The notes under the pieces were generated by a model. That model was given only the letters and a program-made list of their open reading frames with translations, was not told the origin of the DNA and searched no databases. A DNA stretch of 64,000 nt. It comes from Comamonadaceae bacterium OTU4NAUVB1 (GTDB taxonomy: Bacteria > Pseudomonadota > Gammaproteobacteria > Burkholderiales > Burkholderiaceae_C). This document shows, piece after piece, positions 25,214 to 54,097 of the stretch (position 1 is its first letter; each line of letters begins with the position of its first letter). A program made the translations under genes and the position numbers. The stretch is taken from assembly GCA_024372625.1 (NCBI GenBank), contig CP099605.1:2666001-2730000 (forward strand), read 5' to 3'.

Positions 25214-25303
25214 TGGAGGAGAGGGAGGGATTCGAACCCTCGGTACGTTCGCACGTACGCCTGATTTCGAGTCAGGTACATTCGACCACTCTGCCACCTC
25301 TCC
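25214..25303 (-). tRNA. tRNA-Ser (anticodon CGA)
   Basis: The minus strand folds as a class II tRNA. The acceptor GGAGAGG pairs with CCTCTCC, the anticodon loop CTCGAAA gives CGA (reads UCG), there is a long variable arm, and the T-loop is TTCGAAT. CCA is encoded at 25216-25214. The discriminator base reads U instead of the usual G, which is odd. It lies directly downstream of serS on the same strand. Confidence 0.95.
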
Positions 25304-33251: not shown

Positions 33252-33299
33252 ATGAAGCACCACAACCCTTGTCCGGCGGAGGTGTCCCTATGGACATGA
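33252..33299 (+). other. Possible 15-codon leader peptide ORF overlapping the fdnG start
   Basis: ATG at 33252 opens a 15-codon frame (ending SLWT) whose TGA at 33297-33299 overlaps an in-frame ATG of fdnG at 33296 as ATGA. GAGAAG precedes its start. It contains the fdnG ribosome site, so its translation could control access to fdnG. It may also be chance. Confidence 0.25.
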
Positions 33300-36200
33300 G
33301 TCGCCGCCAGTTCTTCCGCGTCAGCGGTGCCGGCCTGGTCGGCTCCAGCATCGCGGCGCTCGGCTTCTCGCCGGCCGCCGCGCTGGCCGAGACGCGCAAC
33401 TTCAAGCTCGCCCGCACCACCGAGACGCGCAACACCTGCCCGTACTGCTCGGTCGGCTGCGGTCTGATCATGTACAGCCTGGGCGACAACGCGAAGAACG
33501 TCGTCCCGGCCATCCTGCACATCGAGGGCGACCCGGACCACCCGGTCAACCGCGGCACGCTGTGCCCCAAGGGCGCCGGCCTGCTCGACTTCGTGCACAG
33601 TCCCAACCGCCTGAAGTTCCCCGAGGTCCGCGAGGCGGGCAGCAACGAGTGGAAGCGCATCAGCTGGGACAGCGCGCTCGACCGCATCGCCAAGCTGCTC
33701 AAGGACGACCGCGACGCCAACTTCCAGCGCACCAGCGCCGACGGCAAGATCGTCAACCGCTGGACCACCTCCGGCATGCTGGCCGCGTCGGCCTCCTCCA
33801 ACGAGACCGGCTACATCACGCACAAGGCATTCCGCTCGCTGGGGATGCTGGTCTTCGACAACCAGGCCCGCGTTTGACACGGACCGACGGTGGCCAGTCT
33901 GGCCCCGACGTTCGGCAGAGGCGCGATGACCAACCATTGGCAGGACATCCAGCATGCGGATGTCGTGCTCATCATGGGCGGCAACGCGGCGGAGGCGCAT
34001 CCGTGCGGCTTCAAGTGGGTGATCGAGGCGAAGAAGCACAACAAGGCCCGCCTGGTGGTGGTCGACCCGCGCTTCACGCGCTCGGCGGCCATGGCGGACT
34101 ACTACGCGCCCATCCGGGCGGGTTCGGACATCGCGTTCCTCTCGGGGGTGCTCAACTACCTGCTGAGCAACGACCGGATCCAGACCGAGTACGTGCGCCA
34201 CTACACCAACGCGCCGTTCATCGTCGGGCCTGACTACAGGTTCGAGGACGGCCTCTTCAGCGGCTACGACGCGGACAACCGCAAGTACGACGCCAAGTCC
34301 TGGGGCTACGCGCTCGACGAGCAGGGCATGGCGCGCGTCGACATGACGATGCAGGACCCGCAGTGCGTGCTCCAGGTGATGAAGCGCCACTATTCGCGCT
34401 ACACGCCCGAGATGGTGAGCCGCATCACCGGCACGCCGCAGGACAAGTTCCTCAAGGTCTGCGAACACATCGCCAGCACGTCCACGCCCGACCGCACCAT
34501 GACGGTGATGTATGCGCTCGGCTGGACCCAGCACAGCCAGGGCTCGCAGATCATCCGCACCGGCGCGATCATGCAGCTGCTGCTGGGCAACATCGGCGTG
34601 ATGGGCGGGGGCATGAACGCCCTGCGCGGCCACAGCAACATCCAGGGCCTGACCGACCTGGGACTGCTGTCGAACTCGCTGCCGGGCTACCTGTCGCTGG
34701 CGCGCGATGGCGAGCAGACGCTGCCGGACTACTACAAGACCCGCGCGCTCAAGCCGCTGCGTCCCAACCAGATGAGCTACTGGCAGAACTACCCCAAGTT
34801 CTTCGTCAGCCTGCAGAAGGCCTGGTGGGGCGACGCCGCGACGGCGGAGAACGAATGGGCCTTCCACTACCTGCCCAAGCTCGACAAGCTCTACGACGTG
34901 CTGCAGGCCTTCGAGCTGATGAACAAGGGCCTGATCAACGGCTACATCTGCCAGGGCTTCAACCCGGTCGCCTCGTTCCCCAACAAGCACAAGACGGTCG
35001 CCGGGCTGTCCAAGCTCAAGTTCCTGGTCACCATCGATCCGCTGGTGACCGAGACGAGCGAGTTCTGGAAGAACTACGGCGAGTACAACGACGTCAGGAC
35101 GGCCGACATCCAGACCACCGTCTTCCGCCTGCCCTCGACCTGCTTCGCGGAGGAGGAAGGCTCGCTGACCAATTCCACGCGCTGGCTGCAGTGGCACTGG
35201 AAGGGCGCCGAGCCCCCGGGCGAGGCGATGGGCGACATCGAGATCGTGGCGGGCATCTTCAACCGCATCCGCGCGGCCTACGCCAAGGACGGCGGCGCCT
35301 TCCCCGATCCGATCGTCAACCTGAACTGGCCCTACAAGATCCCGCACGCGCCCTCCCCCCAGGAGCTGGCGATGGAATACAACGGCAAGGCGCTGGTCGA
35401 CCTGATCGATCCGAAGGACCCGACCAAGGTGCTGGCCAGGGCCGGCGAGCAGTTGCCGGGCTTCGGGCTGCTGCGCGACGACGGCAGCACGTCGTCGGGC
35501 TGCTGGGTCTACTCGGGCGCCTGGACGCAGGCGGGCAACCAGATGGCGCGGCGCGACAACGCCGACCCCTACGGCGTCGGCCAGGCGCTGAACTGGTCGT
35601 GGGCCTGGCCGGCCAACCGGCGCGTGCTCTACAACGCCGCCTCGGTCGATCCGAAGACGGGGCAGCCGTGGATCGCCCGGCGCATGCTGGTGAAGTGGGA
35701 CGGCACGAAGTGGATGGGCTCGGACATTCCCGACATCCGCCCGGACGCCAACCCGATGGAGGCCGACGCCGTGCGTCCGTTCATCTTCACGGCCGAAGGC
35801 GTGGCGCGCCTGTTCGCGCCCACCGGCATGGCCGAGGGGCCGCTGCCGGAGCACTACGAGCCGTTCGAGTCGCCCCTGGTGAACAACCCGATGCACCCGA
35901 ACAACCCGGTGGCACGCGCCAACCCGGCCGCGCGGGTGTTCCAGGGCGACCTGGAGATGCTGGGCGTCCCCAAGGACTTCCCGTACGTCGCCACCAGCTA
36001 CCGGCTCACCGAGCACTTCCACTATTGGACCAAGAACGTCCGCTCCAACGCCATCATCCAGCCGCAGCAGTTCGTCGAGATCGGCGTCGAGCTGGCGGAA
36101 CTCAAGGGCATCACCAACGGCTCGCTGGTGAAGGTGAGCAGCAAGCGCGGCTACATGCGGGCGGTGGCGCTGGTCACGCGGCGCATCCAGGCGCTGCAGG

Positions 36201-36364
36201 TGCAGGGACAGACCGTGCACACGGTCGGGCTGCCCAACCACTGGGGCTTCATCGGCCTCACCAAGCCGGGCTTCCTGGTGAACACGCTGACGCCCGTCGT
36301 CGGCGATGCCAACACCCAGACGCCGGAATACAAGTCCTTCACGGTCAACATCGAAAAGGCCTGA
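33290..36364 (+). CDS. fdnG: Formate dehydrogenase-N alpha subunit, selenocysteine-containing
   Basis: A 1024-residue selenoprotein read through an in-frame UGA at 33875-33877 (residue 196, flanked by NQARV and [10 protein letters not shown]). E. coli FdnG also has Sec at 196 in a matching context. It has a Tat signal (SRRQFFR), a [4Fe-4S] site (CPYCSVGCG and later TLCPKG) and bis-MGD molybdopterin domains. It oxidises formate in the periplasm and passes electrons to FdnH and FdnI. The ATG at 33290 has GGAGG seven bases upstream. Both parts share one frame, so the stop is recoding and not a mutation. Confidence 0.97.
33888..33907 (+). promoter_or_regulatory. Bacterial SECIS hairpin for UGA recoding
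   Basis: Ten bases after the UGA, CGG and CCG form a lower stem, U33891 is bulged, and GGCCA pairs with UGGCC around a GUC loop. A bulged U and a GU-bearing apical loop are the SelB-recognised features of the E. coli fdhF element. It lies inside the fdnG coding sequence and should deliver Sec-tRNA through the SelB encoded at 40526-42466. Confidence 0.88.
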
Positions 36365-36368
36365 GCCC

Positions 36369-37376
36369 ATGTCGTCCCTTCAAACCCTCGACATCGCGGC
36401 GCGCTCGGCCACCACCGTGCAGCCGCCCGACGCCCGCCACCGCCCCCAGGTGCAGGAGGTCGCCAAGCTGATCGACGTGTCCGCCTGCATCGGCTGCAAG
36501 GCCTGCCAAGTGGCGTGCATGCAGTGGAACGACCTGCGCGACGAGGTCGGCGTCACCACCGGCACCTACAACAACCCCAACGACCTGACGCCGGACTCCT
36601 GGACGGTGATGCGCTTCGCGGAGGTCGAGCCCGAGCCCGGCCACCTCGAGTGGCTGATCCGCAAGGACGGCTGCATGCACTGCGAGGACCCGGGCTGCCT
36701 GAAGTCGTGCCCGGCGCCCGGCGCCATCGTCAAGTACAGCAACGGCATCGTCGACTTCATCAGCGAGCACTGCGTGGGCTGCGGCAACTGCGTGACGGGC
36801 TGCCCGTTCGACGTGCCGCGCATCAGCAAGACCGACAACCGCGCCTACAAGTGCTCGCTGTGCTCCGACCGCGTCACCGTGGGCCTGGAGCCGGCCTGCG
36901 TGAAGGCCTGCCCGACCGGCGCCATCCACTTCGGCACCAAGGAGGCCATGCACCAGTACGCCGACGAGCGCATCGTCGACCTCAAGGAGCGCGGCTTCAA
37001 GAACGCCGGTACCTACGACCCGGCCGGCGTCGGCGGCACGCACGTCATGTACGTGCTGCAGCACGCCGACCGCCCCGGCCTCTACAGCAACCTGCCCAAG
37101 GACCCGCACATCAGCCCGCTGGTGTCGCTCTGGAAGGGCGTGGCCAAGCCGCTGGCGGTGCTGGCGATGGTCGGCACGGTGGTGGGCAGCTTCTTCCACT
37201 ACATGAAGGTCGGCCCGGTGGAGGCCAAGGAAGGCGCCAGCGACGAGGACGAGGACGGCCACGGCGTCAAGGCCGAGATCATCGAGGCGCCGCCGGCGCC
37301 GGGGGCGCCACCGCCCTCGTCCGTGCCGCCCGTGCGGACGGTGCACGATCCCGCCGCCCCGCCGCCCCGCGTCTGA
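36369..37376 (+). CDS. fdnH: Formate dehydrogenase beta (iron-sulfur) subunit
   Basis: A 335-residue electron-transfer subunit with four ferredoxin-type cysteine sets ([35 protein letters not shown], and CSLC with CVKAC) for four [4Fe-4S] clusters. A C-terminal membrane anchor spans about residues 258-280 ([15 protein letters not shown]). A Pro-rich tail, longer than in E. coli, follows. It links FdnG to the cytochrome FdnI. It lies four bases after fdnG. Confidence 0.96.
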
Positions 37377-37392
37377 ACCAGGAGCCTCCGCG

Positions 37393-38019
37393 ATGTCGAC
37401 CGTCCGCTACCTGCGCCGCTACCGCGACGCCACGCGCATGAACCACTGGTACGTGGTGCTCATGTTCATCGCCGCCGCGCTCTCGGGCCTGGCGTTCTTC
37501 CATCCCTCGCTGTTCTTCTTCAGCGCCTTCTTCGGCGGCGGCCAGTGGACGCGCATCCTGCACCCCTTCTTCGGACTGGGCATGGTGGGGGGGTTCGCGT
37601 TCCTGTTCTTCACGATGTGGCGCGAGAACGTGCTCGACCGCGCCGACCGCGAATGGCTCGCGAAGGCGCCGGAGATGCTCAAGGGCAACAAGGAGGGCAT
37701 GCCGGCCGTGGGCAAGTACAACGCCGGCCAGAAGCTGGTGTTCTGGGCCTTCGCGGTCAGCCTGCTGCTGCTGCTGGTGACCGGCTTCATGTTCTGGAGC
37801 CCGTGGTTCGTGCACTTCTTCCCGATCACGCTGCGGCGCGTCGCCGTGGTGGTGCATGCCGCCTCGGCCGTCGTGCTGGTGGTCTCGGTGATGACGCACA
37901 TCTACGCTGCGATCTGGATCAAGGGCACCATGCGCGCCATGACGCGCGGCACCGTCACCGAGGGCTGGGCCAAGCTGAATCACCCGCTGTGGCACCGGAA
38001 GATGACGCGCGGCGAATAA
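37393..38019 (+). CDS. fdnI: Formate dehydrogenase gamma subunit, cytochrome b556
   Basis: A 208-residue membrane protein with four helices. Haem-ligand histidines include H in MNHWYVVL of helix 1 and those near VVVHAASAVVLVVSVMTHIY in the last helix. It takes electrons from FdnH to reduce quinone. It sits 16 bp after fdnH with an AGGAG ribosome site, so fdnGHI form one operon that continues into fdhE and selAB. Confidence 0.94.
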   Translation: MSTVRYLRRYRDATRMNHWYVVLMFIAAALSGLAFFHPSLFFFSAFFGGGQWTRILHPFFGLGMVGGFAFLFFTMWRENVLDRADREWLAKAPEMLKGNKEGMPAVGKYNAGQKLVFWAFAVSLLLLLVTGFMFWSPWFVHFFPITLRRVAVVVHAASAVVLVVSVMTHIYAAIWIKGTMRAMTRGTVTEGWAKLNHPLWHRKMTRGE

Positions 38020-38026
38020 TTCCTCG

Positions 38027-39061
38027 ATGACCCGCAACGACCACGACGCTTCCTCCCCCGCCGCCGCACCGCGACCGGCCTACACCACGCGCGTCCTCTC
38101 GGCCGAGGAGATCGCGCTGCAGGCCGGGCGGCAGATGCCCTTCCTGCGCCTGCCCCGGCGCGCGCTGGTGTTCTCCGACCGCGCGCTGCGGCTGCGCCAG
38201 CTCGCCCCCGCCCACGCCATGCGCGACTACCTGCTGTTCGTGGCCGAACTGGCCTCGGCCCAGCACCGCGTGCTGCAGGACCATCCGGACGTCGCCCTGC
38301 CCGACGGCGCGGCCTGCGCCGCCGCCGCCAAGGCGCTCAAGCCGCCCGTGCCGGCCTTCGGCTGGCCGCGCGACGCGCTCTGGCGCACCGGCCTGCGGCG
38401 CCTGCTCGGCCACGTGCGCGAGCGGCTGCCCGACGGCGCGGCGCGCGCGACCGTCGAGCGCATGATCGACAGCGAGGACGACTGGCTCGAGGACCAGGCC
38501 GACCGCCTGCTGCGGCGCCAGACGCTCGGCCTCGACCTGGCCACCGCGCCCCTGATCGGCGCCGGCCTGCAGGTGTACTGGACCCAGCTGGCGCTGCAGA
38601 GCGCCGACGTGCACGGCGAGCGCGTCTTCGGCCACACCGACCCCGCCACCGAGTGCCCGTGCTGCGGCAGCGCGCCGACGGCCTCGGTCACCCGCATCGG
38701 CGCGGACGACGCCGGCTTCCGCTACCTGCAGTGCGCCCTGTGCGCCACGCAGTGGCACTACGTGCGCGTCAAGTGCGCCCACTGCGAGAGCACCAAGGGC
38801 ATCCACTACGAGGCGCTCGCGCCGGCGCACGACGGCCTGGAGGCGTCCGCCACCGGCGCGCGTCCCGGCGCCGTCAAGGCCGAGTGCTGCGACACCTGCG
38901 GCCACTACCTCAAGCAGGTGTCGATGGAGAAGGACCACGAGGTCGAGCCCGTGGCCGACGACCTCGCCAGCGTGGCGCTCGACCTGCTGGTGGCCGACGC
39001 CGGCTTCGCGCGCAGCGGGCACAACCTGATGCTGCTCTTCGGCGACGGCGGGGACGCCTGA
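38027..39061 (+). CDS. fdhE: Formate dehydrogenase accessory protein FdhE
   Basis: A 344-residue cytoplasmic maturation factor. The C-terminal half carries rubredoxin-like CxxC pairs (CPCC, CALC, CAHC, CDTC) that bind iron. It is needed for assembly or activity of the respiratory formate dehydrogenases before Tat export. It is eight bases after fdnI, and its TGA shares a base with the selA ATG (TGATG), tying enzyme maturation to Sec synthesis. Confidence 0.94.
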   Translation: MTRNDHDASSPAAAPRPAYTTRVLSAEEIALQAGRQMPFLRLPRRALVFSDRALRLRQLAPAHAMRDYLLFVAELASAQHRVLQDHPDVALPDGAACAAAAKALKPPVPAFGWPRDALWRTGLRRLLGHVRERLPDGAARATVERMIDSEDDWLEDQADRLLRRQTLGLDLATAPLIGAGLQVYWTQLALQSADVHGERVFGHTDPATECPCCGSAPTASVTRIGADDAGFRYLQCALCATQWHYVRVKCAHCESTKGIHYEALAPAHDGLEASATGARPGAVKAECCDTCGHYLKQVSMEKDHEVEPVADDLASVALDLLVADAGFARSGHNLMLLFGDGGDA

Positions 39062-40515
39062 TGGGCGCGTCCGGCGGACCCGCGGTCCACGGTGCCCAGG
39101 CGCGGCCCCAGGACCTGCCCTCGGTCGACCGGCTGATGCGCGCGCCGGGCGTGCCCGAACTGCTCGCCGCCCACGGCCACACGCTGGTCGCCGGCGAGAT
39201 CCGCGCCCTGCTCGACGCCTTGCGCGCCCGGGTCCTGGCCGGCGGGCTCGACCGCGCCGAAGTCGCCCCCGATGCGCTCGCCACCGCCCTGGCCGCGCGC
39301 GTCGACGCGCGGCTCGCGCCGCGCATGCGCACCGTGTTCAACCTCACCGGCACCGTCATCCACACCAACCTCGGGCGCGCCGTGCTGGCCGATGCCGCCC
39401 TGGAGCGGCTCATGGTGCTGATGGCGTCGCCCGCCAACCTCGAGTACGACCTCGCCACCGGCGGCCGGGGCGAGCGCGACGCGCTGGTCGAGGAGCTGCT
39501 GTGCACCCTCACCGGCGCCGAGGCCGCCACGGTGGTCAACAACAACGCCGCCGCCGTGCTGCTGACCATCGGCGCGCTGGCGCACGGGCGCGAGGCGATC
39601 GTCTCGCGCGGCGAACTGGTGGAGATCGGCGGCGCCTTCCGCATGCCCGACGTGATGGCCGCCGCCGGCGCGCGCCTGGTGGAGGTCGGCACCACCAACC
39701 GCACGCACCCGGCGGACTACGAACGCGCCATCGGCGCGGACACGGCGCTGGTGATGAAGGTGCACACCAGCAACTACGAGGTCCAGGGCTTCACCGCCGC
39801 CGTCGGCGAGGCCGTGCTCGCGCCCATCGCCCACGCGCGCGGCGTGCCGCTGGCCACCGACCTGGGCAGCGGCTCGCTGGTCGACCTGGCCCACCACGGC
39901 CTGCCGCGCGAACCCCTCCCGCAGGAGATGATCGCCGCAGGCTGCGACGTCGTCACCTTCTCCGGCGACAAGCTGATGGGTGGCCCCCAGGCCGGGCTGA
40001 TCGTCGGCGGCAAGGCCGCCATCGAGCGCATCCGCACGTACCCGCTCAAGCGCGCGCTGCGCGTGAGCAAGCTGCCCCTGGCCGCGCTGGAGGCGACCCT
40101 GTCGCTCTACCTGCGGCCCGAACGCCTGACGCAGGACCTGCCGACGCTGCGCCTGCTCACGCGTCCGGTCGCGGCGATCCGCGCGACGGCCGAGGCGCTG
40201 CTCGCGCGGGTCGCCGCCGCCGTCGCGCCGCGCTTCACGGTCGCGGTGGTGGCGCTCCAGGGGCAGATCGGCTCGGGCTCGCTGCCGGTCGAGCGCCTGG
40301 CCTCGGCCGGACTGGCGCTGGCGCCGGCGGGCACGACGCGCAAGGGCCTCGGCGGCGCGCTCGACGCCCTGGCGACGGTGCTGCGCGGCCTGCCGCGCCC
40401 GGTGATCGGCCGCATCGCCGACGACCGCCTGCTGCTGGACCTGCGCTGCCTGGAGGACCACGACCGCGCCGCCTTCGCGGCCCAGCTCGACACGCTGCGC
40501 GAGCGGCTCGGCTGA
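39061..40515 (+). CDS. selA: L-seryl-tRNA(Sec) selenium transferase
   Basis: A 484-residue PLP enzyme. The cofactor lysine is K304 in FSGDKLMGGPQAG. An N-terminal tRNA-binding helical domain precedes the catalytic fold, with TGTVIHTNLGRA near residue 97. It converts Ser-tRNA-Sec to Sec-tRNA-Sec with selenophosphate from the SelD encoded at 45209-46315. Length fits the family (about 460). Translation is coupled to fdhE. Confidence 0.97.
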   Translation: MGASGGPAVHGAQARPQDLPSVDRLMRAPGVPELLAAHGHTLVAGEIRALLDALRARVLAGGLDRAEVAPDALATALAARVDARLAPRMRTVFNLTGTVIHTNLGRAVLADAALERLMVLMASPANLEYDLATGGRGERDALVEELLCTLTGAEAATVVNNNAAAVLLTIGALAHGREAIVSRGELVEIGGAFRMPDVMAAAGARLVEVGTTNRTHPADYERAIGADTALVMKVHTSNYEVQGFTAAVGEAVLAPIAHARGVPLATDLGSGSLVDLAHHGLPREPLPQEMIAAGCDVVTFSGDKLMGGPQAGLIVGGKAAIERIRTYPLKRALRVSKLPLAALEATLSLYLRPERLTQDLPTLRLLTRPVAAIRATAEALLARVAAAVAPRFTVAVVALQGQIGSGSLPVERLASAGLALAPAGTTRKGLGGALDALATVLRGLPRPVIGRIADDRLLLDLRCLEDHDRAAFAAQLDTLRERLG

Positions 40516-40525
40516 CGGCTGCGCC

Positions 40526-42466
40526 ATGATCATCGGCACGGCCGGTCACATCGACCACGGCAAGACCACGCTGGTGCGCGCCCTCACCGGCGTCGACACC
40601 GACCGCCTGCCCGAGGAGAAGCGCCGCGGCATCACCATCGAACTCGGCTACGCCTACCTGCGCGCGGACGACGGCGCCACGCTGGGCTTCGTCGACGTGC
40701 CCGGCCACGAGCGCCTGCTGCACACCATGCTCGCCGGCGCCACCGGCATCGACCACGCCCTGCTGGTGGTGGCCGCCGACGACGGCGTGATGCCGCAGAC
40801 GCGCGAGCACCTGGCCGTGATGGCGTTGCTGGGCCTGCCGCGCGGCAGCGTCGCGCTGACCAAGATCGATCGCGTCGACATCGCCGAGCGCCCGGCCCGG
40901 CTGGCGCGCGTGCGCGCCGAGATCGACGCCCTGCTGGCGTCGACGCCCCTGGCCGGCGCGCCGGTCTTCGCGCTGTCCGCGGCCACCGGCGAAGGGCTCG
41001 ACGCCCTGCGCGCGCACCTGGGCGACGCGGCGCGCGCCGTGCGTTCGCAGGACGCGGCCACGGCCTTCCGCATGGCGGTCGACCGCGCCTTCACGCTGGC
41101 GGGCGTCGGCACGGTGGTGACCGGCTCGGCGGTGGCCGGCCGCGTCGCCGTGGGCGACGAGCTGGTGCTGATGCCCGGCGAGCGCCGGGTGCGGGTGCGC
41201 GGCATCCACGCGCAGAACGCACCGGCCGAGCAGGCCCACGCCGGCCAGCGCTGCGCCCTGGCGCTGGCCGGCGTGGCCCGCGACGAGGTCCGGCGCAGCC
41301 AGTGGGTCTGCGATGCGGGCGTCGCGCTGGCCACGTCGCGCATCGACGTCGAACTCGCGCTCTGGCCCGGCGAGTCGCGCGCGCTGCGCTCCGGCGCCCC
41401 CGTGCACGCGCACCTGGGCACGAGCGACGTCATGGCGTCGGTCGCGCTGCTCGACCGCGACGCCCTGGCGCCGGGCGAGACCGCGCTGGCCCAGCTGGTG
41501 CTGCGCGAGCCGGTGGGCGCCTGGCACGGCGATCGCGGCGTGTTGCGCGACGCCTCGGCCACGCGCACCGTCGCCGGCGTGCGCGTGCTCGACCCCTTCG
41601 CGCCGGTGCGCCATCGCCGCACGCCGCAGCGCCTGGCCCAGCTCGCGGCCTGGCGCTCCGACGACCGGGCCGCGCGCGTCGCCGCCCTGCTCGACGCCAC
41701 GCCCGCCGGCCTGGACACCGCGCGACTCGCGCGCGCGCTCGGGCTGCGCGCCGACGCGGCGCTGCCGCTGCCTGACGACGCGGTGCGCCTGGAGCGCGCG
41801 GCCATCGCCGGCGCGCACGCCGGGGCCCTGCGGCGGCAGGTCGTCGAGCGGCTGGACGCGTTCCATCGCGCGACGCCCGACGAGGTCGGCCCCGACGCCC
41901 GTCGCCTGAAGCGCCTGGCCGCGCCCCGCGTGGACGACGCGCCGTGGCGCCATGCGATCGAGACCCTGCTGAGCGACGGCCGCATCGCGCGCAGCGGCCA
42001 CTGGCTGCACCTGCCCGCCCACGCGGCGGTGCTCGGCGCCGTCGAGGAGCGCCTGGCGCAGAAGCTGCTGCCCGCGCTGGCCGAAGGCGGCTTCGATCCG
42101 GCCTGGGTGCGCGACCTGGCCCGGGACACCGGCGCCACCGAGCCCGTGGTGCGCCAGACGCTCGCTAGCCTGGCGCGACGCGGCCAGACCTTCCAGGTCG
42201 TCAAGGATCTCTACTACCCCGCGGGGACGATCGAGCGGCTCGCGGCGCTGGCGCGCGATTGCCTGCAGAATCCGGCCGGTCTGCAGGCCGCGAGTTTCCG
42301 CGATGCGACCGGGCTGGGCCGCAAGCGCGCGATCCAGCTGCTCGAGTTCTTCGACCGCATCGGCTACACGCGGCGCGTGAAGGACACGCACCTGCTGCGG
42401 CCCGACACGCTGCTCTTCGGTGGCTCGGGCGCCGCGGCCGGCGCAGACGAGCAACCCGTGCCATAG
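40526..42466 (+). CDS. selB: Selenocysteine-specific elongation factor SelB
   Basis: A 646-residue factor. The N-terminal GTPase has [18 protein letters not shown] and TKID, followed by EF-Tu-like domains 2-3. C-terminal winged helices (about 430-640) bind the SECIS hairpin. It delivers Sec-tRNA to UGA in fdnG. The gene starts ten bases after selA, and its TAG is six bases before the tRNA-Sec gene, so selA, selB and selC are probably on one transcript. Confidence 0.97.
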
Positions 42467-42472
42467 GTCCAC

Positions 42473-42567
42473 GGGAGGGAAGCGTCCCCGGTGGGACGGC
42501 CGGGCTTCAAACCCGGTGGGTGGCGCCACGCGTCGCCGGGCGGGTTCGACTCCCTCTCCCTCCCGCC
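42473..42567 (+). tRNA. selC: tRNA-Sec (anticodon UCA)
   Basis: An unusual tRNA: an 8-bp acceptor stem (GGGAGGGA with TCCCTCCC), a long D-stem, an anticodon loop with TTCAAA giving UCA, a long variable arm, and a T-loop TTCGACT. The 3' end reads G then CCT, so CCA is not fully encoded and must be added or repaired. It begins six bases after selB. It reads the UGA in fdnG. Confidence 0.96.
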
Positions 42568-42612
42568 TTCCCGCGTACTCCTCCGCCCGCCCGCCGCCGC
42601 CTTCGTCCGGCC

Positions 42613-45171: not shown

Positions 45172-45208
45172 CGCCAGGGCCGGGGACCCGGGCCGTCCGG
45201 CCCGGCCC

Positions 45209-46315: not shown

Positions 46316-47277
46316 GCAGAGGTCTCCAGCATTGCGGCCAGCAGGGCGCGCAGGGTCGCGCGCTCGCGGGCCGGGTCGAACAGGGGGGCGCGCAACGCGC
46401 ATTGCGCCGCCAGGCGATCGAGTATCGCCCGGTCGTCGCGGCAGCTTTCGAGGAGGGCCGCGAGCCCGGCATCGTCGCCGGGTTCGAAGTAGCCGGCGTA
46501 GTCGGGGCCCAGCATGCCGACGTTGCCGGCGATGCGGCTGGCGAGCACCGGCGTGCCGCTGCGCACGGCCTCCATCACGACGTGGGCGCCGCCCTCCATC
46601 AGGCTCGGATGCACCAGCACGTGCGCGGCCTGGATGCGGCGGCGCGCCTCGGCATGCGGCCGGGCGCCGAGCCAGCGGTAGGCGGGCTGCGCGGCCTGCA
46701 GCGCCTGGGCCTCGCGCCCGAGCGCCGCGTCGAGCGCGGCGCCGACGTGGTCGAGCCGGATTTCCGGCCGCCCGGCCAGCCGGCGCGCGGCGGCGAAGTA
46801 CGTCCCGGGCGACTTCTCCTCCCGCAGGTGCCCCACCATGACCGCGCGCAGGTGGCGCCGGGGCTTGGCCGCCGGCACGCGCGACGTCGTCGACTGGAAA
46901 CAGGCGACGGCCTTGGCGCGGAAGGCCGGCGGCAGGTCCGCGACGGCGCGCTCGTGCAGCACCACCAGCCGGTCGGCCAGCCGCAGCGAACGCACGGCCA
47001 CGGGGTCGTGGAGGATGTCGCGGTAGAGGTCGGTGCCGGTGAGCACCACGGCCGACGGCCGCCCCGGCGCCGCCTCGGCCCAGCGCGCGACCGAGTCGGC
47101 CGAACGCCGCGCGTGCAGGGCGATGAGGGCGTCCGCCGGCGTGCCGTCCCAGCGCGCCACGAGGTCGATCCGATAATTGCCGCCCAGCATCCGGGACCAC
47201 CGCCGGGCCGTCTGCCAGTTGCCGTTGTTGGCATCGGCCAGGGCCGGCGTGACGATGCAGATCGAAGGGCGATTCAT
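46312..47277 (-). CDS. senB: Selenosugar synthase SenB (selenoneine biosynthesis)
   Basis: A 321-residue GT-B glycosyltransferase-like protein. The C-terminal nucleotide-sugar motif is SLMEGGAHVVMEAVRSGTPV (an E-x7-E pattern) and an N-terminal Rossmann half begins ICIVTPALADANNGNWQTA. In the described sen pathway SenB joins selenophosphate to a UDP-amino sugar to form a 1-seleno sugar. It overlaps selD by ATGA, and its start codon overlaps that of senA on the other strand. TATAAG lies seven bases before the ATG. It could be misread as an ordinary glycosyltransferase without this context. Confidence 0.9.
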   Translation of the reverse strand: MNRPSICIVTPALADANNGNWQTARRWSRMLGGNYRIDLVARWDGTPADALIALHARRSADSVARWAEAAPGRPSAVVLTGTDLYRDILHDPVAVRSLRLADRLVVLHERAVADLPPAFRAKAVACFQSTTSRVPAAKPRRHLRAVMVGHLREEKSPGTYFAAARRLAGRPEIRLDHVGAALDAALGREAQALQAAQPAYRWLGARPHAEARRRIQAAHVLVHPSLMEGGAHVVMEAVRSGTPVLASRIAGNVGMLGPDYAGYFEPGDDAGLAALLESCRDDRAILDRLAAQCALRAPLFDPARERATLRALLAAMLETSA

Positions 47278-48571
47278 GAACGAGCTTATAGCCAAGGATG
47301 GCGATCCCGGGGCGCGTGGGGCCGCGGCCGCGGCGCAGGAGGGGCCCGCGGGCGGGCCCGGCGAGGCGATGAGGCACGCCGGGCCGGCCGCCATCGAGGC
47401 CGCGCTGGGCGCCGGGCGGGAGCGGCTGCTGGCGCTGTTCGAGGGATTCCGCGCCGCGCTCGGGCCCGGGGGCCTGCGCATCGCCCGGGACGCGGCGGTC
47501 AACCTGCCGCTGTGGGAACTCGGCCACATCGGCTGGTTCGAGGAGGTCTGGGTCTCGCGCAACACGGCCCGGCCGCAGGGCGTGGACGGCGATCCGCTGG
47601 CGCCTCGCACGGCGTCGCTGCTGCCCGGCGCCGATGCGTTCTACGACTCCTCGGCCGTGGCGCACGCCACCCGCTGGCACCTCGCGCTGCCCGACGTCGA
47701 GGCCACGCTGGCCTACCTGGATGCCGTGCGCGCGGCCACGCTGGGGCTGCTGCGCGCGAGCGCGCCGTCCGACCGCGCGCTCTACTTCTTCCGGCTGGCG
47801 CTGTTCCACGAATCGATGCACTGCGAGGCCTGGCATTTCATGGCCGACCGGCTGGGCATCGATCCGGGGCCGGGCGCGCAGGGCCGCGGTCCCCGGGCGC
47901 GGCCGACCGACGCCGGCGAACTGCGCGTGGCGGCGGGCCGCCACGTCCTGGGCACGACGGCGCCGGGGTTCGCGTTCGACAACGAACTCGGCGCCCACGC
48001 GGTCGACCTGGAAGCCTTCGCCATCGACCGCGCGCCGGTCGCCTGGGGGGCGTTCCTGCCCTTCGTCGAGGCCGGCGGCTACGCCGACGAGGCGGCCTGG
48101 ACCCCGGCCGGACGCGACTGGCTGCGCCGCACCGGCACCGGGGCGCCGCTGAACCTGCGCCGCGGGACGCACGGCTGGGAGCAGCGGGTGTTCGGGCGCT
48201 GGACGCCGCTCGATGCGGCCGCGCCGGCCTGGCACCTGACCGTGCACGAGGCCGAGGCCTGGTGCCGCTGGGCCGGGCGCCGCCTGCCGACGGAGGCGCA
48301 ATGGGAGGCCGCCGCCACCCAGGCGACGCGCGCCGGGGACTTCGCCTGGGGAGAGGTCTGGGAATGGACCGCCAGCGCGTTCGAGCCCTACCCGGGCTTC
48401 GCGCCGCATCCTTACCGCGACTACTCGCAGCCGTGGTTCGACGGCCGGCGCGTGCTGCGCGGCGCCTCCTTCGCGACCGCGCCGTGGCTGCGCCATCCGC
48501 GCTACCGCAACTTCTTCCCCGGGGAGCGCAGCGACGTCTTCGCGGGCCTGCGCAGCTGCGCGCGGCCATAG
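47276..48571 (+). CDS. senA: Selenoneine synthase SenA (EgtB-like)
   Basis: A 431-residue non-haem iron enzyme. The DinB-type helical domain carries the iron ligands H84 (GHIGWF) and H178/H182 in HESMHCE (the H-x3-H-x-E pattern of EgtB). The C-terminal formylglycine-generating/sulfatase-modifying fold ends in GASFATAPWLRHPRYRNFF. SenA joins a seleno sugar to hercynine, leading to selenoneine. GAAGGG six bases before 47276 supports that ATG, but the first 31 residues look unconserved and an ATG at 47369 is the alternative, leaving room for divergent promoters. Hercynine synthase (EgtD) is not in this window. Confidence 0.9.
   Translation: MNELIAKDGDPGARGAAAAAQEGPAGGPGEAMRHAGPAAIEAALGAGRERLLALFEGFRAALGPGGLRIARDAAVNLPLWELGHIGWFEEVWVSRNTARPQGVDGDPLAPRTASLLPGADAFYDSSAVAHATRWHLALPDVEATLAYLDAVRAATLGLLRASAPSDRALYFFRLALFHESMHCEAWHFMADRLGIDPGPGAQGRGPRARPTDAGELRVAAGRHVLGTTAPGFAFDNELGAHAVDLEAFAIDRAPVAWGAFLPFVEAGGYADEAAWTPAGRDWLRRTGTGAPLNLRRGTHGWEQRVFGRWTPLDAAAPAWHLTVHEAEAWCRWAGRRLPTEAQWEAAATQATRAGDFAWGEVWEWTASAFEPYPGFAPHPYRDYSQPWFDGRRVLRGASFATAPWLRHPRYRNFFPGERSDVFAGLRSCARP
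47285..47290 (-). promoter_or_regulatory. -10 box of senB, 7 nt before ATG
   Basis: TATAAG on the minus strand is seven bases before the senB ATG, with no clear ribosome site. It suggests a near-leaderless senB-selD transcript and lies inside the senA frame if senA starts at 47276. Confidence 0.4.
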
Positions 48572-48604
48572 CCCCGGCGCCACGCCCGGTGCGGACCCGC
48601 TTCC

Positions 48605-48610
48605 TACAAT
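48605..48610 (+). promoter_or_regulatory. -10 box for the ABC transporter/mnmH unit
   Basis: TACAAT lies 34 bases after the senA stop and 79 bases before the substrate-binding protein start. The -35 region is poorly defined. It could give the transporter its own promoter separate from senA. Confidence 0.35.
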
Positions 48611-48689
48611 GCGGCCTCCCCGCGCCCGCCGCGCGGTGCGACCGTCCTTCCACCGCCCCCTCCACGGCATTCTCCCGAGGCCTTCCCCG

Positions 48690-49565
48690 ATGCTCCCCGT
48701 CTCATTCCGCTCGTCGCTCCTCCGCCGCCTGGGCGTGGCGTTCGCCCTGACCTTCACCGCCCTCGGCGCCCTGGCCCAGGGCGTGCTGCGCGTCTCGGCC
48801 ATTCCCGACGAGGCGCCCACCGAACTGCAGCGCAAGTTCACGCCGCTGGGCGACTACCTGAAAAAGGCCACCGGCATGGACGTGCAGTTCACGCCCGTGA
48901 CCGACTACGCCGCCGTGGTGGAGGGCCTGGCGACCAACAAGATCGACCTGGCCTGGCTCGGCGGCTTCACCTTCGTGCAGGCGCGCATCCGCACCCAGGG
49001 CGGCGCCGTGCCGATCGTCCAGCGCGCCGAGGACGAGGTCTTCACCAGCAAGTTCATCGTCCCCGTCGACAGCCCCGCCCGGACGCTGGCCGACCTCAAG
49101 GGCAAGACCTTCGCCTTCGGCGCGCCCTCGTCGACCTCGGGCAGCCTGATGCCGCGCTATTTCCTGCTGCAGGCCGGCATCGATCCCGAGAAGGACTTCA
49201 GGAGCGTGGCGTTTTCCGGCGCGCACGACGCCACGGTGGCCTTTGTCGCCGCCTCGCGCGCCGAGGCCGGGGTGCTCAACGCCTCGGTCTGGGACAAGCT
49301 GGTCGAGTCGAAGAACCCGAACGCCGCCAAGGTGCGCGTGCTGGCCACCACCCCGACCTACTACGACTACAACTGGACCGTGCGCCCCGGCATGGACCCG
49401 GCGCTGCAGAAGAAGCTGACCGATGCGTTCCTGAAGCTCGATCCGGCCGATCCGGCGCACCGGGACATCATGGCGCTGCAGCGCGCCAGCCGGTTCATCC
49501 CCACGAAGTCGTCCAACTACGACGGCATCGAGGCGGCCGCCCGGTCCGCCGGGCTGGTCAAGTAG
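48690..49565 (+). CDS. PhnD-like ABC substrate-binding protein, putative selenium oxyanion receptor
   Basis: A 291-residue periplasmic receptor with a signal peptide ending near [11 protein letters not shown] and the PhnD-type fold (LWLGGFTF-like [14 protein letters not shown], then the [16 protein letters not shown] loop). PhnD relatives bind phosphonate or phosphite. Placed between senA and mnmH, this one more likely binds selenate or selenite, matching a family I recall being annotated as a putative selenate receptor. Ligand is inferred from context. The start at 48690 gives a normal signal peptide; an upstream frame start at 48609 would not. Confidence 0.85.
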
Positions 49566-49584
49566 GCGCGGCGCGGCCTCCCCC

Positions 49585-50430
49585 ATGGGCTTCGGGCTCG
49601 ACGCCGTCGGCGTGGTGCATCCCAACGGCCAGCGCGCGCTGGCCGCACTGTCGCTCGCGGCGGCGCCGGGCGAGCGCATCGCGGTGATCGGGCCGTCGGG
49701 CGCGGGCAAGACGACGCTGCTGCGGGTGCTGGGCACCGCGCTGCGGCCGGCCGAGGGCGCCGTGCGCGTGCTCGGCGAGGCGCCCTGGGGCCTGTCGGCC
49801 GGGACCCTGCGGGCGCTGCGCGGGCGCATCGGCACGGTGCACCAGTCGCCGCCGATCGCCCCGCGCCTGCGGGTGGTGACGGCGGTGCTGTCGGGCCGGC
49901 TGGGGCGCTGGTCCACGGCGCGCGCGCTGCGCTCGCTGGTCCATCCGTCGGACATCGAGGGCGCGCACGAGGTGCTCGCGCGGCTGGGGCTGGAGGACCG
50001 CCTGTTCGAGCGCTGCGACCGGCTCTCCGGCGGCCAGCTCCAGCGCGTGGGCGTGGCCCGCGCGCTCTACCAGCGGCCCGACCTGCTGCTGGCCGACGAG
50101 CCGGTCTCCGCCCTCGACCCGACGCTGGCCGACGCCACGCTCGGCGCCCTGGTCGCGCAGGCCGAGGCCACGGGCGCGACCCTGGTCGCCTCGCTGCACG
50201 CGGTCGACCTGGCCCTGCGCTGGTTCCCGCGCGTCGTCGGCCTGCGCGAGGGTGCCCTGGCCTTCGACCGCCCGACGGCGGAGGTCACCCCGGCGCTGCT
50301 GGAGGCGCTCTATGCGAGCGAGGGCGGGCCGGCCACGCAGGCGCCGCCCGGCGGCGCCGGCGCGGCGAGCATGGCGTCCTCCGGGGCCGCGTCCGCTCCG
50401 GTCCGGCGTCCGGCGCCGGTCTGCCGTTGA
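49585..50430 (+). CDS. PhnC-like ABC transporter ATPase (putative selenium uptake)
   Basis: A 281-residue ATPase with Walker [10 protein letters not shown] (from residue 36), Q-loop VHQSPPI, signature [15 protein letters not shown] and Walker [13 protein letters not shown]. It belongs to the phosphonate (PhnC) type. A disordered Ala/Gly-rich tail of about 35 residues ends the protein. It would power uptake by the two permeases encoded next. Its stop overlaps the TTG start of the first permease (TTGA). Confidence 0.88.
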
Positions 50431-51284
50431 ACGCCCCGTCCGTGTCCCTCGCGCGGCGCCCCGGGCGCGTGTCCCATGCCGATCCGCAGGCACGGCGCCG
50501 GCTGGCGGGCACGCTCGCCGCGCTGGCGATCGCCTGGCCGATGCTGGCGCTGTCGGAATTCCAGCCCTGGCGGCTCTTCGACCGCGACAGCCTGGCCGTG
50601 CTGGGCGGCTTCCTCGGCGGCTTCCTGCCGCCGGCGACGGCGCCGGATTTCCTGCGCCTGCTCGGACGCGCCACGCTGGAGACCCTGGCCATGGCCACCG
50701 CCGGCATCGCCCTGGCGTTCGTCATCGGCGCACCGCTCGCGTTCCTGGGCACGCGCGCGCTGTCGGTCTCGCGCATCGGGCCGGGTCCGGGACGGTGGCG
50801 CGGCGCGCTGCTGCGGCGGGCGGTGCGCCTGCTGCTGATGGGGCTGCGCGCCATCCCCGAGATCGTGTGGGCCCTGCTGTTCGTGCGCGCGCTCGGCCTG
50901 GGGCCGGCCGCCGGCGTGCTGGCGCTGGCCATCACCTACGGCGGCATGCTGGGCAAGGTGTACGCCGAGATCCTCGAATCCACCGACACCCGCCCGGCAC
51001 GCGCGCTGCTGGAGGCCGGCGGCGGGCGGCTGGCGGCGCTGGGCTACGGGCTGCTGCCCAACACCGCACAGGAACTGGTGTCCTACACCGTCTACCGCTG
51101 GGAATGCGCGGTGCGCGCCTCGGTGGTGATGGGTTTCGTCGGCGCCGGCGGGCTGGGCCAGCTGATGGACCAGTCGATGAAGATGCTCAACGGCGGCGAG
51201 GCCAGCAGCATCCTGCTGGTGTTCCTGGCTCTGGTGCTGCTGGCCGATCTGCTGAGCAACGCCCTGCGCAGGATGCTGGCATGA
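50427..51284 (+). CDS. PhnE-like ABC permease 1 (putative selenium uptake)
   Basis: A 285-residue inner-membrane permease with about six helices and the permease loop [19 protein letters not shown] (the EAA-type ATPase-coupling site). The C-terminal [15 protein letters not shown] is typical of PhnE. The start is TTG in a TTGA overlap with the ATPase stop, implying translational coupling. It pairs with the second permease as a heterodimer. Confidence 0.86.
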
Positions 51285-52096
51285 ACCCGCCTCCCCGCTC
51301 GCCCACGCTGGCCCGGCGTCCCGCGCCGTGCCTGCGCTGCCGGCTCGTGCCGGTGGCGGTGCTGGCGGCGGTGGTGGCCAGCTTCGTCTACCTGGACCTG
51401 GGCTTCGGCGCGCTGGCGTCGGCGGAATCGCTCGGCCACATGGGCCGCTTCGTCGCCGAATTCTTCCCGCCGGACCTGACGCCCGCGTTCCTGCGCAAGG
51501 TCGCAGCGGGCGCGCTGCAGACGCTGGCGGTGTCGGCGCTGGGCACCGTGCTGGCCGCCCTGGCCGGGGCGCTGCTGGCGCTGCCGGCCTCGGGCCGCGC
51601 CGGTCCGGTGGCGAGCGAGGCGTCGCGCTTCACGCTCAACGTGCTGCGCAGCGTGCCCGAACTGGTGTGGGCCGCCGTGATGGTGCTGGCCGCCGGCATC
51701 GGCCCCTTCGCCGGCGCACTGGCGCTGGCGCTGCACACCACCGGCGTGCTCGGCCGGCTGTTCGGCGAGACGCTGGAGAACGTGCCGCGCGAACCCGAGG
51801 CGGCGCTCGCCCTGTCGGGCGCCGGTCCGGTCGCGGCCTTCGCCTACGCCAGCCTGCCGATCGCGCTGCCGCAGTGGGTCGCCTACGCGCTCTATCGCTG
51901 GGAGATGAACATCCGCATGGCGGCGGTGCTGGGCTTCGTCGGCGGCGGCGGGCTCGGGCAGCTGCTGTACTTCCACCTGTCGATCTTCCAGCAGTCCCAG
52001 GCCATGACGGTGCTGATCGCCATGTTCGCGATCGTCGCCGCGGTGGACGCGGCCAGCGCCCGGTCGCGGCGCGGTCTCGGTCCGGCCTACGCCTGA
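51281..52096 (+). CDS. PhnE-like ABC permease 2 (putative selenium uptake)
   Basis: A 271-residue permease with one N-terminal helix (about 24-40) and a five-helix core. The coupling loop is ALALSGAGPVAAFAYASLP and the end motif FVGGGGLGQLLYFH. It is only distantly similar to permease 1. It overlaps the first permease by ATGA. It completes a binding protein, ATPase and two-permease set that runs into mnmH. Confidence 0.86.
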   Translation: MNPPPRSPTLARRPAPCLRCRLVPVAVLAAVVASFVYLDLGFGALASAESLGHMGRFVAEFFPPDLTPAFLRKVAAGALQTLAVSALGTVLAALAGALLALPASGRAGPVASEASRFTLNVLRSVPELVWAAVMVLAAGIGPFAGALALALHTTGVLGRLFGETLENVPREPEAALALSGAGPVAAFAYASLPIALPQWVAYALYRWEMNIRMAAVLGFVGGGGLGQLLYFHLSIFQQSQAMTVLIAMFAIVAAVDAASARSRRGLGPAYA

Positions 52097-52130
52097 GCCT
52101 CCGCTTCCCTTCCCTTTTCCCCGCATCGCC

Positions 52131-53237
52131 ATGAACTCGCATCGCCAACCCGTCCAGGTCAAGGACATCGCCGGCTTCGACACCGTGATCGACGCCCGCA
52201 GCCCGGCCGAATTCGCGCTCGACCACATTCCCGGCGCCATCAACCTGCCGGTGCTCGACGACGCCGAGCGCGTCGTCGTGGGCACGCTCTACAAGCAGCA
52301 GGGCGCCTTCGAGGCCCGCCGCGTGGGCGGCGCGATGGTCGCGGCCAACCTCGCGCGCCATCTGCAGACCCGGCTGGCCGACCAGCCGATCAAGTGGCGA
52401 CCGCTGGTCTACTGCTGGCGCGGCGGCCTGCGCAGCGGCTCCATGGTCGCCTGGCTGCGCCTGGTGGGCTGGGACGCGCAGCAGCTCGCCGGCGGCTACA
52501 AGGGCTTCCGTCACGACGTGATCGAGCGCATCGAGGCGCTGTCGCCCCGGCTCGACCTGCGCGTGCTGTGCGGCGCGACCGGCAGCGCCAAGACGCGCGT
52601 GCTGCAGGCCCTGGCCGCGCGCGGCGAACAGGTGCTCGACCTGGAGGATTTCGCGCGCCACAAGGGTTCGCTGCTGGGCAATCTGCCAGGCATCCCGCAG
52701 CCCGCGCAGAAGGCCTTCGAGACCCGCATCGCCACGGTGCTCGGCACGCTCGACCTCGCGCGCCCGCTCTACGTCGAGGGCGAGAGCGCGCGCATCGGCC
52801 GGTTGTCGGTCCCCATGCCGCTGGTGGCGCGCATGCGCGAGGCCGCCTGCATCGAGATCGCCGCCACGCCCGCCGCGCGGCTGGACTACCTGCTGCGCGA
52901 CTACGCCTACCTGGGCGACGACCGCGCCGGCCTGGCCGAGAAGCTGGGCGCGCTCAAGGAACTGCAGGGCAAGGAGACGGTGACGCGCTGGCAGCAGTGG
53001 GCGCGCGAGGCCGAGCTGCCGCGCCTGTTCGCCGAACTGATGTCGCTGCACTACGACCCGCATTACGAGGCCTCGCAGTCTCGGCATTTCAAGGCCTGGA
53101 CGCGGCGCCAGGTGGTGGCGGCCGGCGACCTGACGGACGCCGGCATCGACGCGGCGGCCGACGCGGTGCGGGCGCTGGCGGGGTCGCCGGACGCTCAGCC
53201 GCCCGGGGCGCCGGCGTCGGGCAGCCCGTCGGCGTAG
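52131..53237 (+). CDS. mnmH: tRNA 2-selenouridine synthase MnmH/SelU
   Basis: A 368-residue enzyme. The N-terminal rhodanese domain has the catalytic cysteine in VYCWRGGLRSGSM (C95). A P-loop domain (CGATGSAKTRVL, near residue 143) binds geranyl diphosphate or nucleotide. It swaps sulfur for selenium at the wobble 2-thiouridine of Lys, Glu and Gln tRNAs using selenophosphate. It is 34 bp after the transporter genes, linking uptake to use. Its 3' end overlaps fdhD antisense by 43 bp. Confidence 0.95.
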   Translation: MNSHRQPVQVKDIAGFDTVIDARSPAEFALDHIPGAINLPVLDDAERVVVGTLYKQQGAFEARRVGGAMVAANLARHLQTRLADQPIKWRPLVYCWRGGLRSGSMVAWLRLVGWDAQQLAGGYKGFRHDVIERIEALSPRLDLRVLCGATGSAKTRVLQALAARGEQVLDLEDFARHKGSLLGNLPGIPQPAQKAFETRIATVLGTLDLARPLYVEGESARIGRLSVPMPLVARMREAACIEIAATPAARLDYLLRDYAYLGDDRAGLAEKLGALKELQGKETVTRWQQWAREAELPRLFAELMSLHYDPHYEASQSRHFKAWTRRQVVAAGDLTDAGIDAAADAVRALAGSPDAQPPGAPASGSPSA

Positions 53238-54097
53238 AGCACCGCGCGCGGCGCCCGGCACAGGCCCCAGAAGCGCACCCCGCCGAGCTCGGCCATGCGC
53301 ACCCCCATGGCCGTGGGCGCCGAGATGGTCGCCATGGCGGCGATGCCCAGCCGGGCGCACTTGCGCACCAGTTCGTGGCTGCCCCGGCTCGACATCACGA
53401 CGAAGCCGGGCTCCCGCAGGCGATCCATCCGCGCGAGGCGGCCGAGCAGCTTGTCGAGCGCGTTGTGGCGCCCGACGTCCTCCAGCACGTCGACGAGCGC
53501 GCCGTCGAGCGTCGCCCAGCCGGCCGCGTGGATGGCACCGGCCCGGGCGTTGAGCGTCTGGCGCGCGGGCAACGCGGCGAAGGCGCGCAGCACCGTGGCG
53601 GCATCGACGCGGCCGATCCAGTCGCGCGGGGGCACGCGCTGCGGCGCGATGTCCAGCGCGGCGAAGCTCTCGACGCCGCAGATGCCGCAGCCGGTGCGCC
53701 CGGCGATGCTGCGGCGGCGGCCCTTCAGGCGCTCGAAGCTGCGGGTGGAGACCTCCAGGCGCACCTCGACGCCGGGAACGCCCTCGGGCAGGCCGGCATC
53801 GGCGGCGGACACCGCCCGGACCTCGACGCCACGGCAGTCATCGGCCGCGTCGAGGATGCCCTCGCTGAGCGCGAAGCCGAGCGCGAAGTCCTCCAGATCC
53901 TGCGGCGTGGCCATCATCACGGCATGCGAGATGCCGTTGAAGACCAGCGCGACGGGCACCTCGGCGGCCAGCACGTCCTCGCGCGCCGCGCCTTCGGACG
54001 GCACGCCGGGCTCGCCGTGCACCCGCACGGGCCGGTGCGCGAGCGGGGACGGGACGGGCGGATCGGTGTCGATGTCGATGTCGATGTCGGCGGTCAT
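53195..54097 (-). CDS. fdhD: Formate dehydrogenase sulfurtransferase FdhD
   Basis: A 300-residue protein that passes sulfur from IscS to the molybdenum cofactor of formate dehydrogenase. The conserved C-x-x-C is CGIC (C137, C140), then EDVGRHNALDK, SSRGSHELVRK and a C-terminal AELGGVRFWGLCR. The N-terminus is poorly conserved and contains an (Asp-Ile) run encoded by four GATGTC repeats. It serves FdnG encoded 17 kb away, so the island is bracketed by formate dehydrogenase genes. It lies 62 bp downstream of the Mrp gene on the same strand. Confidence 0.95.
   Translation of the reverse strand: MTADIDIDIDTDPPVPSPLAHRPVRVHGEPGVPSEGAAREDVLAAEVPVALVFNGISHAVMMATPQDLEDFALGFALSEGILDAADDCRGVEVRAVSAADAGLPEGVPGVEVRLEVSTRSFERLKGRRRSIAGRTGCGICGVESFAALDIAPQRVPPRDWIGRVDAATVLRAFAALPARQTLNARAGAIHAAGWATLDGALVDVLEDVGRHNALDKLLGRLARMDRLREPGFVVMSSRGSHELVRKCARLGIAAMATISAPTAMGVRMAELGGVRFWGLCRAPRAVLYADGLPDAGAPGG

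Follow-up and report, generated by a model that had tools for sequence, protein, structure and literature searches.

A selenium locus with a candidate selenium oxyanion importer beside the only selD of a Comamonadaceae genome

Results

We analyzed a stretch of 64,000 nucleotides from Comamonadaceae bacterium OTU4NAUVB1 (contig CP099605.1, positions 2,666,001 to 2,730,000; the window), whose 33-54 kb region carries genes for selenium use around one selD and a four-gene ATP-binding cassette (ABC) transporter. Gene content, neighborhoods and a conserved anion pocket suggest a selenium locus on the chromosome whose dedicated ABC importer, for a selenium oxyanion that is most likely selenite, probably feeds a single SelD and three consumers. 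A sequence-only reading of this DNA had already proposed selenium import and one selenophosphate supply. The former is borne out as a prediction by the family TIGR04553 binding protein (above the cut-off of 250 bits) that is encoded with an ATPase and two permeases beside selD, and the latter by profile searches of the genome, which found one selD over cut-off and no second. Single copies over cut-off were likewise found for selA, mnmH, senB, senA and the binding protein; two further EgtB-like genes score 330 and 325 bits, under the SenA cut-off of 420.

The selenocysteine trait is represented by SelA, SelB, tRNA-Sec, SelD and a UGA-containing gene with a selenocysteine insertion sequence (SECIS) element, the 2-selenouridine trait by SelD and MnmH over cut-off, and the sen (selenoneine) cluster by SenA and SenB, both over cut-off beside SelD. 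The sequence-only reading had called these all three bacterial selenium pathways, which goes too far: a Se-cofactor trait (yqeB/yqeC) is described as likewise dependent on SelD (PMC5322559), and ovoselenol is named alongside selenoneine (PMC13188914).

In the proposed pathway, with import as the presumed direction, the binding protein, ATPase and two permeases (48693-52096) would carry a selenium oxyanion, of which selenite is the likeliest, into the cell. General thiols would presumably reduce the anion to selenide, which the only SelD would convert to selenophosphate, a common pool for three adjoining consumers. Provided that the genes are expressed, SelA, SelB and tRNA-Sec would place selenocysteine at residue 196 of FdnG, MnmH would form 2-selenouridine in tRNA, and SenB would make a selenosugar whose selenium SenA would combine with hercynine to give selenoneine. 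A supply of hercynine from an EgtD-like methyltransferase encoded elsewhere is plausible because the same genome has a gene for a PF10017 (EgtD family) protein (376 bits), which adjoins an EgtB-like gene (L269).

Association of the importer with selD

The closest named selD locus is that of a Variovorax metagenome-assembled genome (L070), which makes Variovorax the likely genus of the window. Of 61 sampled genomes of the genus, the window's own included, 60 have selD over cut-off; the corresponding counts for the binding protein, selA and senA are 56, 26 and 18. The selD regions of 56 other genomes were read (those of G166, G181, G196 and G209 were not), and genes within 9 kb of selD were counted. 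The binding protein lies within this distance in 50 of the 56 genomes and mnmH in 40. Importer and mnmH accompany selD in 22 (with selA farther away in G160, G185 and G216), importer, mnmH and selA in 13, and importer, senA and senB in another 13; four have mnmH without the importer. One genome each shows the importer with mnmH and senAB (G194, selA 15 kb off), senAB alone (G171, on a contig of 12.4 kb), the importer alone, and none of these genes (G217, on a contig of 4.2 kb). The common core of the genus is selD plus the importer, usually with mnmH, and the consumers have been gained, lost or swapped around it.

The association extends beyond the genus. We surveyed 398 genomes of the phylum, drawn evenly, and found the binding protein in 34; selD is present in 32 of these carriers versus 128 of all 398 genomes (Fisher 2.8e-15, a test that takes genomes as independent and ignores kinship). 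Five of the carriers (G000, G049, G076, G093 and G133) also belong to the order sample described next, and two (G000 and G191) to the genus sample. The importer lies within 10 kb of selD in 14 of the 32 genomes that have both. The order sample, 160 genomes drawn evenly and including the window's own, again has 34 importer carriers, of which 32 have selD, eight of them within 20 kb. Starting from selD, we found the binding protein nearby in 16 of 55 named loci flanked by 8 kb or more on each side; 25 of the 80 named loci were excluded for short flanks.

We then annotated the regions around 20 phylum carriers. Importer, selD and mnmH stand together in four (L251-L253 and L257; three from one family and one from the window's family), and a SelD fusion, senB and the importer in five (L254-L256, L266 and L267). 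One region has selD beside two binding proteins and one has selA beside the importer (L264); nine contain no queried selenium gene, except for a weak selB match 9 kb off in L262. Across the 33 importer loci compared in the order sample, the identified neighbors that recur in at least four loci at consistent places are selD (seven loci), senB (four), SenA/EgtB-like genes (four) and EgtD-like genes (four). Two of the four SenA/EgtB-like proteins share only 30-34% identity with SenA of the window, and the EgtD-like neighbors are PF10017 histidine methyltransferases (L033, L043, L049 and L060). Other neighbors are a class-III aminotransferase (three loci), a short-chain dehydrogenase (five, scattered) and an open reading frame (ORF) without a Pfam match (four); further recurring ORF clusters are confined to three related genomes.

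The fused SelD proteins carry a pyridine-nucleotide oxidoreductase domain (TIGR03169) and adjoin senB and the importer at L254:6808-9084, L255:7196-9466 and L256:5140-7560, with more such fusions at L266:10886-13162, L267:12262-14550 and L033:13434-15941. These six score 284-304 bits, over the TIGR00476 SelD cut-off of 125. Besides the five phylum loci, G003 has a fusion with senB and the importer; G387 and G583 have a second, unfused selD elsewhere in addition to the fusion. Two cyanobacteria are reported to have a SelD homologue joined to an NADH-dehydrogenase-like domain (PMC1273633).

All protein families at the locus were already known, and NCBIfam had guessed that the binding protein acts in selenium use. 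To our knowledge, the quantified tie between TIGR04553 and selD, the alternation of TIGR04553 between selenium consumers, its link to loci with fused SelD and senB, and the membership of picocyanobacterial PhnD1 in the family (see below) are new within the literature searched.

Two side observations concern hercynine-related genes at importer loci. A gene for an EgtD-like methyltransferase sits between those for the binding protein and SenA in L060, L108, L121 and L139, among others; this arrangement would put hercynine supply within the sen locus. In four loci of Duganella and Telluria (L081, L098, L101 and L129), a gene for a distant SenA/EgtB-like protein (30-32% identical) and an EgtD-like gene lie divergent to the importer, kilobases past senB-selD, and are perhaps an ergothioneine locus.

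Relatives and pocket of the binding protein

Among 18 solved relatives matched, the nearest to the window's binding protein is PhnD1 of Synechococcus (7S6G, 41% identical), followed by PhnD1 of Prochlorococcus (5LQ5) and then PtxB. The two PhnD1 sequences tested, 7S6G and 5LQ5, both exceed the TIGR04553 cut-off (338.3 and 302.4 bits) and so share with the window's protein both an NCBIfam family and an anion pocket. In 7S6G, phosphate is contacted by Y44, S124-T125-S126, H156, D203 and Y204 (PMC10284923). All seven contacts are kept in the window's protein, at residues 72, 147-149, 178, 225 and 226. They are also kept in 75-79 of 79 family rows and in 18 further aligned binding proteins from the phylum, apart from N at D203 in three of the 18; the two PtxB rows have Q at D203.

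PhnD1 is reported to bind phosphite (0.05-4.3 uM) more tightly than phosphate (7-182 uM) and not to bind hypophosphite, and a trigonal three-oxygen arrangement is said to be required (PMC10284923). All 97 picocyanobacterial genomes in one database encode it, and for most of its hosts no use of phosphite is known, which the authors call paradoxical (PMC10284923). Unlike the proposal made here, that study describes PhnD1 as a phosphate transporter, and "seleni" has no match in its main text.

The NCBIfam name of TIGR04553, "putative selenate", is itself a hypothesis (hypoth_equivalog), and the pocket speaks instead for a trigonal oxyanion, for example selenite. Like phosphite, selenite is a pyramidal anion with three oxygens, and no other selenium anion is as similar to phosphite. 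Because selenite most resembles phosphite, which PhnD1 prefers, we favor it over the library's selenate as the probable substrate. The literature searched gave no match to TIGR04553 as a name and, in the texts available, no selenium-binding measurement for a family member; "selenate ABC transporter" occurs there as an annotation (e.g. PMC9426549).

Alternative explanations for the transporter

Several observations weigh against selenium import as the role of the transporter. In the order sample, the importer lies more than 20 kb from selD in 24 of the 32 genomes with both, and 86 of the 118 selD genomes have no importer. Carriers without selD over cut-off are G358 (listed as 100% complete) and G471 (78%) in the phylum sample, and G002 and G159 (210 and 680 contigs) in the order sample. 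The cyanobacterial SelD fusions were separated from true SelD orthologues (PMC1273633), and a related NCBIfam model is named fusion_not_SelD, although the six fusions read here (456-481 bits) fall below its cut-off of 700. The NCBIfam label points to selenate, not selenite. For PhnD1, a first-pass screen of compounds, which may not have included selenite, gave shifts with phosphorus sources only; PhnD1CE is induced by phosphorus stress in some strains (WH8102); and the conserved neighbor named for it is tesA, not a selenium gene (PMC10284923). As an observation in its own right, one carrier region of the selD-less G358 (L249, G358:C1:22500-42400) encodes a family binding protein of 326.6 bits, and no other query gene was found there.

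Some of these points would fit a phosphorus importer (of phosphite, phosphate or phosphonate) whose proximity to selD is incidental. The solved PhnD1 relatives bind the phosphorus anions phosphite and phosphate, the latter having co-purified with the protein (PMC10284923), and the window's ATPase and permeases resemble PhnC and PhnE. In phosphate-depleted Pseudomonas putida BIRD-1, a protein annotated as a "phosphonate/selenate" binding protein rose about threefold (0.309 to 0.959%), compared with 0.328 to 2.680 for PstS1 (PMC9426549). However, the association with selD spans several families of the phylum, and no phosphorus gene is among the identified recurring neighbors, although no search was aimed at such genes. 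In addition, the picocyanobacteria WH8102, MITS9220, MED4 and MIT9313 are reported not to grow on phosphite, and PhnD1 abundance in the oceans not to track phosphate (PMC10284923). We consider a phosphorus importer unlikely. Scavenging of selenoneine, ergothioneine or another organic compound would be in keeping with the position of the importer beside senA in many loci and with the EgtD-like and distant SenA/EgtB-like neighbors in Duganella and its kin, yet the pocket is an oxyanion pocket, and 36 of the 56 genus genomes have the importer by selD with senA and senB absent within 9 kb, mostly with mnmH in their place. Since the importer is kept where senAB is absent, an importer specific for selenoneine is disfavored, and we regard organic substrates in general as very improbable.

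Import of a selenium oxyanion, the reading that we prefer, bears on a gap in the literature. Two reviews, of 2022 and 2026, contain passages saying that a (specific) high-affinity system for selenium transport has yet to be identified in prokaryotes (PMC9312934, PMC13188914), and an archaeal deletion study of 2024 is worded as giving no clear evidence for such a transporter (PMC11097638). The neighborhoods described above offer a concrete importer candidate, one that accompanies different selenium consumers according to what each genome encodes. If this candidate is right, it would also explain why oceanic picocyanobacteria retain a phosphite-binding transporter that most of them cannot use for phosphite, and selenium limitation in soils and oceans would become accessible to genetics. 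It is conceivable, though we judge it somewhat more probably wrong than right, that TIGR04553 transporters as a whole are the dedicated high-affinity selenite importers of prokaryotes, including PhnD1CE, long regarded as a phosphorus transporter. If so, the liking of PhnD1 for phosphite would be selenite mimicry.

Distribution and history of the locus

The three selenium uses had been described in the sequence-only reading as usually met separately. This does not hold for genomes of the order, where, of the 160, 118 have selD over cut-off, 116 mnmH, 47 senB, 46 selA and 34 the binding protein: selD, selA, mnmH and senB occur together in 21, mnmH is present in all 47 senB genomes, and all five families are found in 10. 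What is rare is tight co-location, as only the window's genome has the five families within 20 kb (first-to-last match, 13.1 kb). Since 21 of 160 genomes carry the set and only one has it within 20 kb, three selenium uses in one genome are ordinary and a single locus for all of them is unusual; the idea that genomes rarely combine the three traits is rejected.

The order fdnGHI-fdhE-selA-selB-tRNA-Sec-selD-importer-mnmH is found in congeners and is an established arrangement in the genus. The window and G194 insert senB-senA between selD and the importer, and among the 60 other sampled congeners a looser version of the full set occurs only in G194. The whole set was not found in unrelated genomes: the order sample yielded it only in the window's own genome, and the genus sample added G194. 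In Paraburkholderia haematera (L141) and Pseudogemmobacter humi (L149), fdnGHI-fdhE-selA-selB clusters have the same order and adjoin selD but, unlike the window, have no senAB or importer match within 10 kb. The sen cluster of Variovorax paradoxus DSM 30034 resembles the window in its clustered senA, senB and selD (senC) and in the chemistry proposed for it (PMC9814287), and differs from the window, where sen is combined with Sec machinery, mnmH and the importer. Among other congeners, G185 has a Sec/importer/mnmH locus without sen, plus a senB-senA pair 0.7 Mb distant; G206 has a second senB-senA pair with neither selD nor importer in the 20 kb read; and G174, G206 and G211 have a different selA-selB, with selA 55-56% identical to the window's and the other locus genes absent from the stretch read.

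Phylogenies suggest separate histories for these parts. The SenB tree holds 53 rows after removal of L049 as a long branch and of L103, L168 and L171 as duplicates. SenB of the genus is split between a group shared with Ramlibacter, another nested in that of Roseateles, a main group and the group of the window, and monophyly of the 18 genus rows is rejected (p-AU 2.5e-5). The window's SenB thus forms a lineage distinct from the genus's main sen group (the tree does not include DSM 30034), and the window's binding protein groups with mostly sen-less congeners at moderate support (SH-aLRT 82-92, quick method). Because SenB is polyphyletic in the genus, the binding protein groups with sen-less congeners, and G185 and G206 have separate senB-senA pairs, the senA-senB pair does look mobile, moving or being exchanged, while selD and the importer mostly appear to stay together.

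The sequence-only reading had gone further and proposed one transferable selenium module. Transfer of the whole 21 kb as a single island would account for its compactness, unique within 20 kb among the 160 genomes, and for the guanine-cytosine content of 2-kb windows, which reaches 0.780 inside the locus (0.665-0.780, versus 0.654-0.748 outside; ranges only). The parts nonetheless vary independently: 13 congeners have the same order minus sen and with selA, the SenB and binding-protein trees conflict, and apbC and genes read as yceH and metG stand downstream in G185 and G215 as they do in the window (the last two named from sequence reading). No integrase, transposase or other mobile-element gene was seen among the seven flanking or edge proteins scanned. 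We reject the island as a single mobile unit on its gene content, its flanks and the trees, and give its horizontal transfer as a whole hardly any credence. A plasmid origin was also rejected: when 45209-50430 was compared by megablast with 72,556 plasmids, 25 records matched, none covering 80% of the query, and the 20 matches listed of these 25 align with the selD part only. The nearest other tRNA is a tRNA-Ser at 25214-25303, 8 kb away.

Gene content and layout

Every gene named in the sequence-only reading was found, with the scored enzymes over curated family cut-offs, and the locus holds in addition fdnH, fdnI and a hybrid histidine kinase (Table 1).

Table 1. Features of the selenium locus in window coordinates
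Feature	Position	Strand	Basis
fdnG, formate dehydrogenase catalytic subunit	33290..36364	+	named from sequence reading; Sec codon TGA at 33875-33877
SECIS_3 element (RF01989)	33872..33930	+	71.2 bits, gathering score 63; spans the fdnG TGA
fdnH, iron-sulfur subunit	36369..37376	+	TIGR01582, 437 bits
fdnI, cytochrome b556 subunit	37393..38019	+	TIGR01583, 168 bits, cut-off 115.85
fdhE	38027..39061	+	three Pfam domains, FdhE_N/central/C
selA	39061..40515	+	TIGR00474, 566.8 bits, cut-off 267.9
selB	40526..42466	+	TIGR00475, 472.9 bits, cut-off 242.25
tRNA-Sec (selC), anticodon TCA	42472..42567	+	
hybrid histidine kinase, 852 aa, PAS/GAF and receiver domain	42613..45171	-	domain scan; between tRNA-Sec and selD
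selD (senC role)	45209..46315	-	NF002098, 527.6 bits, cut-off 299
senB	46312..47277	-	TIGR04348, 446.2 bits, cut-off 300; 4-base overlap with selD
senA	47276..48571 (listed start)	+	NF041186, 494.7 bits, cut-off 420
importer periplasmic binding protein	48693..49565	+	TIGR04553, 366.7 bits, cut-off 250
importer ABC ATPase, PhnC-like	49585..50430	+	204.6 bits, below PhnC cut-off 266.1
importer permease 1, PhnE-like	50427..51284	+	203.8 bits, below PhnE cut-off 216.7
importer permease 2, PhnE-like	51281..52096	+	TIGR01097, 227.1 bits, over PhnE cut-off 216.7
mnmH (selU/ybbB)	52131..53237	+	NF008752, 499.2 bits, cut-off 266; rhodanese domain
fdhD	53195..54097	-	TIGR00129, 174.8 bits, cut-off 140.9; PF02634

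Upon reading both strands of 33-54 kb, the in-frame TGA of fdnG was placed at residue 196. Overlaps of a few bases join selD to senB, the ATPase gene to permease 1 and permease 1 to permease 2, and a gap of 34 bases separates permease 2 from mnmH. The divergent senA and senB overlap in their listed start codons at window 47275-47278; for senA, the ATG at 47366 is the likelier true start because the SenA family match begins only at residue 33.

At a threshold of 200 bits, the histidine kinase between tRNA-Sec and selD has no match in 25 selA regions from congeners, several of which are short. Several congeners have a cassette between selA and selB (L168:4301-7572, also in L152 and L153), which encodes a FadE16-like acyl-CoA dehydrogenase (402.5 bits, below the cut-off of 600), an Rv1680-like binding-protein homologue apparently without a signal peptide (223.9 bits, below 400) and an AurF-like protein. 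Binding-protein-like matches at the same position were also found in L155, L159, L161, L163, L164 and L165, and the cassette is possibly a selenium-related side pathway.

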